Both the position numbers and the translations under genes were made by a program. DNA of 32,957 nt from an uncultured Pelagibacteraceae bacterium (GTDB taxonomy: Bacteria; Pseudomonadota; Alphaproteobacteria; Pelagibacterales; Pelagibacteraceae): positions 1-32,957 of the forward strand of contig CACKCD010000010.1 in assembly GCA_902598595.1 (NCBI GenBank). The letters are read 5' to 3'. Each line of letters opens with the position of its first letter. Within the stretch, counting starts at the first letter, position 1. Below, in pieces: positions 3,145 to 29,731 of the stretch. The notes under the pieces are model-generated. The model saw only the letters and a program-made list of their open reading frames with translations, was not told the DNA's origin and did not search any database.

Positions 3145-3220
3145 TGGCTCCTCGGGCAGGACTCGAACCTGCGACCAATTGATTAACAGTCAACTGCTCT
3201 ACCAACTGAGCTACCGAGGA
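3145..3220 (-). tRNA. tRNA-Asn (GTT)
   Basis: On the minus strand the 76-base gene starts TCCTCGGTAGCTCAGTTGG and ends with a genome-encoded CCA. The acceptor stem pairs TCCTCGG with CCGAGGA; the anticodon loop is CTGTTAA with anticodon GTT. The T-arm contains GTTCGAGTC. It lies 47 bases downstream of tRNA-Cys on the same strand, so the two may share a transcript. Confidence 0.97.
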
Positions 3221-20916: not shown

Positions 20917-21519
20917 CTAATATAAATTTTGGGCTGCTACCATAGATAGTAACATTGGAAATGAAAGCAAAGTATTAGCCCTAGAAAACAACATTGCTGT
21001 TTTAGCTGATTTAGCCTTTTCCTCTGGAGAACTTTCAACTATCCCAAGAGCTTTTTTTTGATTAGGCCAAATAACAAACCAAACGTTATAAGCCATAATA
21101 ATTCCTAACCACATTCCAATTCCTATAGTAGTATTTTTTCCAAAACCACTTCCAATATCCAAAGTCATAGCTTGATGCAAATATCCATTCAGGTAAGCAA
21201 CTATAAGTCCTGTTATTATTGTTCCAAATGCAGCCCATCTAAACCAAAATAATGCTTTTGGAGCTATTACTTTACCTATGGCTGGTTTTTGCTCATCAGG
21301 AATGTTTGGCATTGAAGGTATTTGAACGAAATTAAAGTACCAAAGTAAACCAATCCACATAATTCCAGTCAACACATGTAGATATCTGAACAGCCAACTA
21401 AAAAAATATCTATCAAAAGCAAAACCATCACCTCCAAAATGAAGTCCTAAAAGGAGTAATATTGCTAATCCTAGAGAAACATGAACTGTTTTAGATAAAG
21501 ATTGTAGTATTGAAATCAT
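20917..21519 (-). CDS. PuuD-like urate hydroxylase membrane domain protein
   Basis: The 200-residue protein has about five hydrophobic helices and matches, by eye, the N-terminal membrane domain of PuuD-type urate hydroxylases (Urate_ox_N). The clearest block is the helix LHVLTGIMWIGLLWYFNFVQIP (about 47-68) and the later WFRWAAFGTIITG. Full PuuD enzymes carry a C-terminal cytochrome c domain; here no CxxCH is present, so electron transfer, if any, needs a partner. No purine catabolism genes are nearby. Its role should be left open. It lies 26 bases downstream of uvrA on the same strand and may have its own extended -10 promoter. Confidence 0.75.
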   Translation of the reverse strand: MISILQSLSKTVHVSLGLAILLLLGLHFGGDGFAFDRYFFSWLFRYLHVLTGIMWIGLLWYFNFVQIPSMPNIPDEQKPAIGKVIAPKALFWFRWAAFGTIITGLIVAYLNGYLHQAMTLDIGSGFGKNTTIGIGMWLGIIMAYNVWFVIWPNQKKALGIVESSPEEKAKSAKTAMLFSRANTLLSFPMLLSMVAAQNLY

Positions 21520-27564: not shown

Positions 27565-28053
27565 ATGAAAACAGCTATTTATCCAGGGACATTTGATCCA
27601 ATTACATATGGTCACATTGATGTAATTAAAAAATCCTTAAAAATTTTTGATCGAGTCATTGTTGCCACAACAGACAATATTAATAAGAATTATTATTTTT
27701 CTATAGAAGAAAGACTATTAATAATTAAAAATTCATTGTTTCAAGATTTAAAATTAAATAAAAATAAAATTAAAGTAGTAGCATTTGATACTTTAACTAT
27801 AAATTTGTGTAAAAAATATAAAGCCTCTGTTATCATTAGAGGTCTTAGAGCAGTTTCGGATTTTGAATATGAGTTTCAATTAGCTGGCATGAATAAAAAA
27901 CTTAATGCATATATTGAAACCATGTTTTTAATGTCAGATGTTGAAAACCAGATTATTTCATCAAAATTTGTTAAAGAAATATCAAAATTAGACGGTAATA
28001 TTAATAAATTTGTAACTAAATCAACAGTGAAAATGCTCAAGAACAAATTTTAA
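27565..28053 (+). CDS. coaD: Phosphopantetheine adenylyltransferase
   Basis: CoaD makes dephospho-CoA from ATP and 4'-phosphopantetheine, the penultimate step of coenzyme A synthesis. The nucleotidyltransferase motif TYGH is at residues 14-17 (YPGTFDPITYGHIDVI). Substrate-binding blocks are IIRGLRAVSDFEYEFQLAGMNKKL and the ISSKFVKEI loop. The 162-residue length is normal. Its TAA overlaps the next ATG by one base. Confidence 0.96.
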   Translation: MKTAIYPGTFDPITYGHIDVIKKSLKIFDRVIVATTDNINKNYYFSIEERLLIIKNSLFQDLKLNKNKIKVVAFDTLTINLCKKYKASVIIRGLRAVSDFEYEFQLAGMNKKLNAYIETMFLMSDVENQIISSKFVKEISKLDGNINKFVTKSTVKMLKNKF

Positions 28054-28610
28054 TGAAGAAATTTATCTATTTATTTATATTCTTTTTTAGTCTATTAAAC
28101 ACTCATTCAATTGCTAAAGAAAAAATAATGATACTAAAATTAAAATACGGAGAGGTTCAAATAGAATTATATCCTGAAAAAGCTCCAAATCATGTTAAAA
28201 GATTTATAGAGCTTTCGGATCAAGGCAAATACGACAATGTTATTTTTCATAGAGTAATAGAAGGGTTCATGGCCCAAACAGGTGACGTAAAATTTGGAAA
28301 CTCTAGTAACTCAGAATTTAATTTATCTTTAGCTGGAACAGGCGGATCAGATCTACCTAATTTAAAAGCTGAATTTTCTGAAATTGCTCACACTAGAGGT
28401 ATTTTGTCCGCCGCTAGATCCGCTGATCCGAACAGCGCAAATAGCCAATTTTTTATATGTTTTGAGTCTGCTCCTCATTTAGACAGACAATATTCTGCTT
28501 TTGGTAAAGTAATCAAAGGTATGGAATTTGTAGACATGATTAAAAAAGGAGATCCGAATAGTGGATCTGTAGCAGACCCAGATAAAATTATTACTTTAAG
28601 ATCAAAATAA
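28053..28610 (+). CDS. Periplasmic cyclophilin-type peptidyl-prolyl isomerase
   Basis: This enzyme speeds proline cis-trans isomerisation during protein folding. Residues 1-21 form a signal peptide (Lys-Lys, a Phe/Ile-rich core, then HSIA as a cleavage site), so it should act in the periplasm. The cyclophilin active site is FHRVIEGFMAQTGD, with catalytic Arg67 and Gln75, followed by GGSDLPNLKAEF and SQFFICFESAPHLD. At 185 residues it is PpiA/PpiB-sized. It sits between coaD and tgt, where other alphaproteobacteria often have one or two ppi genes and then queA. Confidence 0.94.
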   Translation: MKKFIYLFIFFFSLLNTHSIAKEKIMILKLKYGEVQIELYPEKAPNHVKRFIELSDQGKYDNVIFHRVIEGFMAQTGDVKFGNSSNSEFNLSLAGTGGSDLPNLKAEFSEIAHTRGILSAARSADPNSANSQFFICFESAPHLDRQYSAFGKVIKGMEFVDMIKKGDPNSGSVADPDKIITLRSK

Positions 28611-28615
28611 CTTAA

Positions 28616-29731
28616 ATGCAAAAAGAAGAATTTTCTTTTGAGTTGTTAGCTCAAGAGAATAAAGCAAGACTAGGGAAAATCACTACACCTAGAGGAAAAA
28701 TAGATACACCCGCTTTTATGCCAGTTGGAACATTAGGAACTGTAAAAGGTGTATTTGTTGATGATCTTTTAAAAACTGGAACTCAAATTCTTTTGGGTAA
28801 TACTTATCATTTATTACTACGACCAGGAATTGATATAATTAAAAAATTTGATGGACTTCATAAATTTATGAATTGGAACAAACCAATTTTAACAGACTCT
28901 GGAGGTTATCAAATTATGTCTTTATCAAAACTAAACAAAATTGATAAAAATATTGGAGCAATTTTTAAATCACATATCGATGGAAAAAAAATTATTTTAA
29001 GTCCAGAAAAAAGTATTCAAGTTCAAAAATCTATTAACTCAGATATAATTATGGTTTTAGACGAATGCCCTAAGTTAACAAAAGACAAAAAAATTATATC
29101 AAAAGCAATTGATATATCTACTCATTGGGCTGAACGCTCTAAAATTGAATTTGGCCACAATAAATCAAAAGCATTATTTGGTATAGCGCAAGGCGGCCTT
29201 TATAAAGATTTGCGTCAAGAAAGTATCGAAAATTTAATCAACATAGATTTTGATGGTTATGCTATGGGAGGTTTAGCTGTAGGAGAGACTCAGTCTCAAA
29301 TGTTTAAAATTTTAAATGAAACAACACACTTGTTGCCTGAAAATAAACCCAGATATTTAATGGGCGTAGGTACTCCATCTGATATTCTAGGAGCTGTTTA
29401 TTATGGCATAGATATGTTCGATTGTGTTTTACCAACTAGATCGGGTAGAACAGGATTAGCTTTTACTTGGCAGGGAAAGCTAAATATTAAAAATTCTAAA
29501 TATCAAAATGATAAATTACCATTAGATCCAAATTGTGAACTAAAAGGGCTAAACAAATACTCAAAAAGTTATTTAAATCATTTAGTCAAAACCAATGAAA
29601 TGATGGCTTCAATGTTGATTTCGTTACATAATATCAATTTTTACCAGCAATTTATGAGTGAAATTAGAAAAAATATTAAGGGTGGCACTTTTGCTACTTT
29701 TTATAAAAAATATATTAACTATTTTAATTAA
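28616..29731 (+). CDS. tgt: Queuine/preQ1 tRNA-guanine transglycosylase with degenerate zinc site
   Basis: Bacterial TGT exchanges guanine-34 for preQ1 in tRNAs with GUN anticodons. The catalytic core is intact: Asp94 (LTDSGGYQ), VLDECP, IAQGGLYKDLR, the bacterial-type GGLAVGE, and the nucleophile Asp269 in DMFDCVLPTRSGRTG. The zinc site is not. Relatives have C-x-C-x2-C plus a downstream His; here the segment reads DPNCELKGLNKYSKSYLNHL, so Cys307 is kept but the next two are Leu309 and Leu312. The fourth ligand His338 (LHNINFY) is kept. Length (371) is normal and the codons are Leu CTA, two or more base changes from Cys, so sequence error is unlikely. No queA lies beside it. Confidence 0.93.
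   Translation: MQKEEFSFELLAQENKARLGKITTPRGKIDTPAFMPVGTLGTVKGVFVDDLLKTGTQILLGNTYHLLLRPGIDIIKKFDGLHKFMNWNKPILTDSGGYQIMSLSKLNKIDKNIGAIFKSHIDGKKIILSPEKSIQVQKSINSDIIMVLDECPKLTKDKKIISKAIDISTHWAERSKIEFGHNKSKALFGIAQGGLYKDLRQESIENLINIDFDGYAMGGLAVGETQSQMFKILNETTHLLPENKPRYLMGVGTPSDILGAVYYGIDMFDCVLPTRSGRTGLAFTWQGKLNIKNSKYQNDKLPLDPNCELKGLNKYSKSYLNHLVKTNEMMASMLISLHNINFYQQFMSEIRKNIKGGTFATFYKKYINYFN

Follow-up and report, generated by a model that had tools for sequence, protein, structure and literature searches.

The tgt gene of an uncultured Pelagibacteraceae bacterium (GCA_902598595.1, contig CACKCD010000010.1), found in the 32,957-nucleotide stretch of DNA analyzed here (the window), encodes a full-length tRNA-guanine(34) transglycosylase (TGT) in which two of the four ligands of the structural zinc site are replaced by leucine. 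The product is quite probably a functional, zinc-free TGT in which the metal knuckle has been replaced by side-chain packing, the site having been lost several times. This feature is ordinary, being common to much of the class Alphaproteobacteria, and yet unusual, since a site described as a hallmark is missing and no report of a zinc-less TGT was found, judged by title or opening of the abstract, among the papers listed from the open-access literature, to which the search was directed (most subscription papers lay outside its scope). Nor was any paper on zinc in alphaproteobacterial TGTs found in the open-access literature.

The tgt Gene of the Window

The tgt open reading frame starts with ATG and contains no internal stop codon, and its product scores far above the cut-offs of TIGR00430 (478.6 bits; cut-off 306.75) and PF01702 (487 bits; cut-off 26.3); it is the one copy of TGT found in the window's 65.57%-complete genome (Table 1). 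When the protein is aligned to the TGT chains of Zymomonas mobilis, its C-E-L-K-G-L segment sits gap-free on C-H-C-A-V-C, so that no alignment shift exposes replacement ligands. The protein contains three cysteines in total, at positions 151, 270, and 307, of which Cys151 belongs to the conserved DEC motif and Cys270 to the FDCV motif; together, the gap-free alignment and this inventory rule out a shifted alignment or replacement ligands. A sequence test for the C-x-C-x2-C set plus distal His likewise returned an incomplete set, with ligands 2 and 3 missing. The first-pass annotation, made from the sequence, had stated that these two ligands were lost while Cys307 and His338 were kept, and the alignment and codons show this to be correct. 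Its statement that the catalytic residues and the frame were intact also holds: Asp94, Asp269, and the GGLAVGE loop are all present in the stop-free frame, and the catalytic pair Asp94/Asp269 (Asp102 and Asp280 in Z. mobilis) is found in 403 of 403 aligned rows, as well as in all 66 rows of the alignment used for structure modeling.

Table 1. Features of the window, with positions counted from its first nucleotide.
Feature	Position	Strand	Basis or remark
tRNA-Asn (GUU)	3145..3220	-	ARAGORN
uvrA, in-window control with C4 set C750, C753, C773, C776	21546..24425	-	Pfam UvrA domains
coaD-like gene, cytidylyltransferase-like domain	27565..28053	+	gene order as in S. meliloti
cyclophilin-type peptidyl-prolyl isomerase, directly 5′ of tgt	28053..28610	+	five bases before tgt
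tgt, tRNA-guanine(34) transglycosylase, 371 aa	28616..29731	+	PF01702, TIGR00430, structural model
Cys307 codon TGT, sole zinc-ligand Cys retained	29534..29536	+	alignment and codons
Leu309 codon CTA, replaces ligand Cys 2	29540..29542	+	alignment and codons
Leu312 codon CTA, replaces ligand Cys 3	29549..29551	+	alignment and codons
His338 codon CAT, ligand position 4, retained; Asn in some relatives	29627..29629	+	alignment and codons

Zinc Ligands Across the Pelagibacterales

TGT was found in 120 of the 169 genomes of a genus scan (14 of the 14 with completeness of 90% or more and contamination of 5% or less), in 98 of the 118 genomes of a family scan, and in 101 of the 117 genomes of an order scan, the three genome sets overlapping. 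The Pelagibacterales rows analyzed, a subset of these matches, number 179 and represent 158 distinct genes (126 from family f1, named relatives included, and 32 from family f2). A check for close relatives with a full site, proposed in the first-pass annotation, returned none: each of the 158 genes has at most one of the three ligand cysteines. One ligand Cys is present in 93 of the f1 genes and none in the other 33; all f2 genes keep the third ligand Cys only. The fourth ligand position is His in 132 of the 158 genes and Asn in 26. Cysteines elsewhere within positions 300–319 occur in seven genes, two of which also have a ligand Cys, and none of these totals three.

The identity of the retained cysteine varies among subgroups (genera, coded g1 and so on). 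The first is retained in 49 of 51 g1 rows, the single g10 row, three of six g2 rows, and 11 of 17 g4 rows, and the second, without exception, in the 20 rows of g5, g7, g9, and g12; ligand cysteines are absent in g3, g6, g8, and g13. In g3 the distal His is gone too, Asn standing there in all 11 rows (one of which has a His where the first Cys would be), and the catalytic core is unchanged. Within the window's genus, taken together with named relatives (66 distinct genes), Cys307 and His338 are each retained in 58; Cys307 is replaced in eight and His338 by Asn in eight. The named relatives, from which the names SAR11 and Pelagibacterales are taken for the sampled rows, are up to 95% identical to the window TGT, and one at this level of identity (L032) has the same two leucines. 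Since none of the 158 genes has more than one ligand Cys and the Cys that is kept varies, the loss in the window is one form of an erosion spread through the Pelagibacterales as sampled. The ligand loss described in the first-pass annotation is thus real, but it is not particular to the window genome, and the ligands regarded as remaining vary among relatives. In two other genomes, G218 of the family scan and G398 of a draw across the phylum, tgt lies in two pieces, with a TAA within one of the G218 pieces.

Selection on tgt

The window tgt and that of L032, its most similar named relative, differ with dN 0.021 and dS 0.484, and their C-terminal parts (residues 286–370) with dN 0.025 and dS 0.264. 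In the same 66 genes, position 309 is Ile in 44, Leu in 21, and Met in one, and position 312 is Leu in 64, Met in one, and Ile in one; the residue type at both positions is held while the codons vary, nine being used at the former and eight at the latter. Asp94, Asp149, Gln192, Val222, Asp269, Arg275, Arg278, Tyr319, and His322 are invariant over the 179 Pelagibacterales rows; 174 of these have Phe84 and 176 have Tyr315. Purifying selection acts on the gene, and a reading of decay fails; the earlier view that the change was selected is supported both by dN lying far below dS and by the restriction of positions 309 and 312 to Ile, Leu, or Met in every one of the 66 genes.

Distribution Outside the Pelagibacterales and Pattern of Loss

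A draw of 150 genomes, spread evenly over the phylum and at least 90% complete except for the window's own, contained TGT in 147. All 40 other alphaproteobacteria with TGT in this draw were analyzed, and the site is full in 16 and not full in 24, some of the latter having genomes of 6–8 Mb. The alignment of alphaproteobacterial TGTs suggested in the first-pass annotation therefore shows that the loss is not confined to SAR11. Among 50 non-alphaproteobacteria, taken from the 106 with TGT as the 30 best-scoring and 20 others of mostly lower score, the site is full in 49, and the remaining gene is broken in two. A second draw, across the class, contained TGT in 141 of 153 genomes; the 90 analyzed (the 30 best-scoring and 60 others, mostly low-scoring, three genomes repeating the phylum draw) comprise 72 with a full site and 18 without. 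Against a widespread loss, the site is full in all 44 named non-SAR11 records among the 80 best relatives, nearly all of them alphaproteobacteria by title and chosen by likeness to the query. Plasmid records searched at the protein level supplied named examples of loss, five of the 69 matching records being compared. The TGT of Sinorhizobium meliloti Ak57 (CP090106.1) reads S-S-C-P-A-T plus Asn, with Ser, Cys, Thr, and Asn at the ligand positions and hence one ligand of four kept; that of Shinella reads S-T-C-P-A-A plus Asn and that of Methylobacterium bullatum S-A-C-P-A-A plus Asn. The full site is present in the TGTs of Paracoccus ferrooxidans and Escherichia coli.

In 378 distinct genes from all groups, among which SAR11 is over-represented, four ligands occur in 177, three in two, two in 127, one in 47, and none in 23, and two genes are gapped. 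Both three-ligand rows, L327 (C-x-C-x2-S) and L378 (C-x-C-x2-L), have the His. Every one of the 177 rows that have all three cysteines has the distal His as well, which 50 of the 199 other rows lack, a distribution in which the zinc site acts as a single unit whose leftover ligands drift once it is broken. With the zinc columns excluded, the minimum number of changes between full and broken sites is 10 on a 125-row tree (LG+G4) and eight on a 99-row tree (mixture model, with the divergent low-scoring rows L344–L370 left out), and still eight on the latter with the SAR11 rows uncounted; as both trees have many weak forks, an odd SAR11 composition, and no direction of change, the number of losses is approximate and only several independent losses are safe. 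The zinc site thus seems to have been lost several times among alphaproteobacterial TGTs. In an attractive Dollo view, the retention of three different cysteines by three SAR11 subgroups would point to an ancestor with all three and to separate losses; however, rows with Cys at position 1 are nested in the trees among others that have Val, Leu, or Asn there, so that regain is possible.

Two other variants were encountered in these rows. One alphaproteobacterial TGT (L272, genome G451) has H-P-H-P-A-L plus Ala at the ligand positions, a His-containing replacement. Rows L344–L370 of the class draw form a divergent alphaproteobacterial TGT clade in which a GGSLG-like loop mostly replaces GGLAVG and whose matches are longer than usual, in an insertion-like manner; the substrate of this clade may be different.

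Structure Model

The C-terminal zinc subdomain and the TIM barrel have been described as supporting tRNA binding and dimer contact (PMC6165067; PMC4425180), and the zinc domain has been termed a hallmark of TGT (PMC6165067). The structure prediction suggested in the first-pass annotation was carried out with AlphaFold2, and the C-terminal region was modeled confidently in a fold like that of Z. mobilis TGT: the mean pLDDT is 94.7, with ten-residue blocks of 96–98 over residues 301–360, and the top Foldseek match is Z. mobilis TGT (TM-score 0.96, 50% identity), with the TIM barrel and the C-terminal subdomain both present. The model places a helix at residues 309–314. A zinc-holding control, L066 (ligands at 310, 312, 315, and 341), was modeled from the same 66 rows with a pLDDT of 94.9 and a helix at 313–317, and the two models, compared on listed secondary structure alone, differ little. 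Because AlphaFold2 is blind to metals and the control is predicted equally well, the confidence of the model is no proof of stability without zinc. A zinc-free fold is likely. In known TGTs, three Cys and one His staple the C-terminal subdomain, whereas in the window protein the aliphatic residues 309 and 312 lie in the predicted short helix, and the pocket would presumably be held by side chains packing on the long helix that bears His338.

Z. mobilis TGT, known from PDB entries 1pud, 1enu, 1ozm, and others, thus resembles the window protein in its fold, catalytic Asp pair, GGLAVG preQ1-type loop, and dimer hot-spot positions, and differs from it in having C-H-C-A-V-C plus His where the window protein has C-E-L-K-G-L plus His. 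The aromatic hot spot of the Z. mobilis dimer, formed by Phe92, Trp326, Tyr330, and His333 (PMC5395182), corresponds in the alignment to Phe84, Tyr315, Tyr319, and His322 of the window protein.

Function in Organisms Without the Full Site

The TGT of S. meliloti resembles that of the window in being full length, in having lost most zinc ligands, and in its coaD-isomerase neighborhood. The Ak57 protein keeps the second Cys and has Asn for the distal His, whereas the window protein keeps the first Cys and the His; in Ak57, a queA gene (396.6 bits in Pfam) runs into the start of tgt. In S. meliloti 1021, where tgt is SMc01206, tgt mutants were reported to have a profound nitrogen-fixation defect and, at low serum, to cause no cytoskeletal changes in HeLa cells (PMC3568095). 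In the same HeLa assay, preQ1 rescued queC and queF mutants and did not rescue tgt or queA mutants, and the queA mutant was described as having little or no symbiotic phenotype (PMC3568095). These phenotypes are those of insertion mutants, and complementation is described for queF (PMC3568095). By analogy, and assuming that the motif of strain 1021 is that of Ak57, a TGT without the full site would matter in vivo in S. meliloti. As the same loss is found in wider relatives, including this soil bacterium, where the importance of the gene is established, zinc is probably dispensable and its loss would not be a special adaptation to the ocean.

A second comparison is offered by Bartonella henselae, which, like the window genome, has TGT and QPTR without QueA and a preQ1-type pocket; preQ1 salvage has been proposed for Bartonella and Pelagibacter alike, and B. 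henselae bTGT supplied with preQ1 partially restored Q in an E. coli queDF tgt mutant (PMC11570991). The word zinc does not occur in the main text of that paper. A row inferred to be from Bartonella (L263) reads S-P-C-S-A-A plus Asn against the C-E-L-K-G-L plus His of the window, and has Val at position 220, in the numbering of PMC11570991, if the later of two adjacent Met codons is taken as its start; queA was not found in its genome.

Queuosine Pathway and Substrate

No queA was found in the window's genome (65.57% complete, 39 contigs) or in any of 86 f1 genomes; it is present in 11 of 12 f2 genomes and lies just 5′ of tgt where both share a contig. The QPTR transporter family (PF02592) was found in 91 of 98 genomes, including that of the window, which has one. 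Within its incomplete assembly, the window genome fits the salvage set of TGT and QPTR without QueA (PMC11570991). Imported preQ1 would be inserted at G34 of the tRNAs for Asp, Asn, His, and Tyr, and without QueA the modification would end at preQ1. Because the zinc site is lost in f2 with queA still present, the loss of the site and that of queA are separate events, and a tie between the two is ruled out by f2 and S. meliloti, both of which retain queA. The pocket of queuine-type TGTs is described as GG[LS][AS]G, with Gly for Val in the substrate loop (PMC11570991); this type was not found, the preQ1-type Val222 standing in all of the Pelagibacterales rows. The suggestion of a changed substrate in the first-pass annotation finds no support in this residue or in the f2 genomes, which lack the site and mostly have queA.

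Alternative Explanations

The first-pass annotation had offered a reduced need for zinc in a lineage of the metal-poor ocean as a cause, that is, SAR11 would have dropped the zinc of TGT owing to zinc-scarce seawater. Metal uptake systems have been reported to be few in SAR11, half of 22 genomes carrying znuA (PMC4771312), and the absence of the full site from every Pelagibacterales gene analyzed would agree with such thrift. Ribosomal protein L31, too, has no Cys in any of the 26 Pelagibacterales loci analyzed (26 of 30, L421–L450) and hence no Cys zinc site, but as alphaproteobacterial L31 is often without Cys, this is not counted as thrift. As a specific cause this explanation is improbable: the same site has been lost in S. 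meliloti, Shinella, and Methylobacterium and in 24 of the 40 other alphaproteobacteria, large genomes among them, and other zinc sites have been kept. DnaJ has four C-x-x-C-x-G repeats in 29 of 29 Pelagibacterales loci (in the genome of the window, a DnaJ search matched nothing better than UvrA, and that weakly), and the window itself encodes UvrA with its C4 module and an M48 peptidase in which HEIAH is kept. With these sites of DnaJ, UvrA, and M48 peptidase retained, wholesale shedding of zinc in SAR11 is ruled out, and ocean thrift, though it may have played a part, is not needed as a cause. It is equally doubtful that a reduced-ligand metal site persists, in which Cys307 and His338, with water, Glu308, or other side chains, would bind a metal, perhaps weakly. 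The retention of each of these residues in 58 of the 66 genes and of exactly one Cys in several subgroups speaks for it; against it stand g3, with no ligand Cys, Asn for His, and the same catalytic core, the change of the retained Cys from subgroup to subgroup, and the aliphatic character of positions 309 and 312 across the window's genus.

Relaxed constraint, by which a Q pathway shrunk to preQ1 salvage would make TGT matter less and let it drift toward loss, is consistent with the lack of queA in f1 and with tgt not being seen in four of 75 order genomes whose completeness is 90% or more and contamination 5% or less. It is very unlikely, given that f2, with queA kept in 11 of 12 genomes, and S. 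meliloti, with queA adjacent, have lost the site, that dS greatly exceeds dN in each part of tgt, and that the catalytic residues are invariant in the 179 rows. An error of sequencing or assembly at the two CTA codons might be imagined in a fragmented genome of 39 contigs; its probability is negligible, as it is refuted by the relatives, L032 having the same Leu pair and all 66 genes an aliphatic residue or Met at both positions. A functional TGT that probably lacks zinc is therefore retained as the preferred reading.

Significance

More broadly, it is fairly likely that the structural zinc of TGT is dispensable and that many Alphaproteobacteria, SAR11 and rhizobia included, insert queuosine or preQ1 with metal-free enzymes, the staple having been exchanged for packing several times independently, with C-x-C-x2-S and C-x-C-x2-L forms that keep the His as possible intermediates. 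Loss of zinc in Ros/MucR zinc fingers may offer a precedent, but it was not seen in the text consulted of PMC9569694 and carries no weight here; mutagenesis of the zinc ligands of E. coli TGT is reportedly the subject of a classic study. The TGTs form a natural series with four, three, two, one, and no zinc ligands, some in testable organisms, in which it can be asked how a structural metal site goes while the fold stays. Zinc-proteome counts that assume zinc in every TGT would need correction. For SAR11, one assumed zinc demand would be removed, and a minimal preQ1-salvage module would be supported in a very common marine lineage.

Neighborhood and Other Features of the Window

The right end of the window carries a gyrA-like open reading frame (by sequence), the coaD-like gene, the cyclophilin-type isomerase gene, tgt, tRNA-Lys, and genes for an M48 peptidase, a DUF502 protein, and a recG-like helicase. 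The gap between the isomerase gene and tgt is only five bases, whereas S. meliloti has two isomerase genes there and queA separates them from tgt. The tRNA-Asn (GUU) encoded elsewhere in the window belongs to the class of tRNAs modified by TGT. In the window UvrA, residues 260–263 are C-P-E-S. Other UvrA proteins usually have C-x-x-C as their first Cys pair, so that the window protein is one Cys short here; it does have C413/C416/C427 and C750/C753/C773/C776. A 200-aa protein encoded at 20917–21519 on the minus strand matches Urate_ox_N (Pfam) partially, over positions 170–238 of 295.
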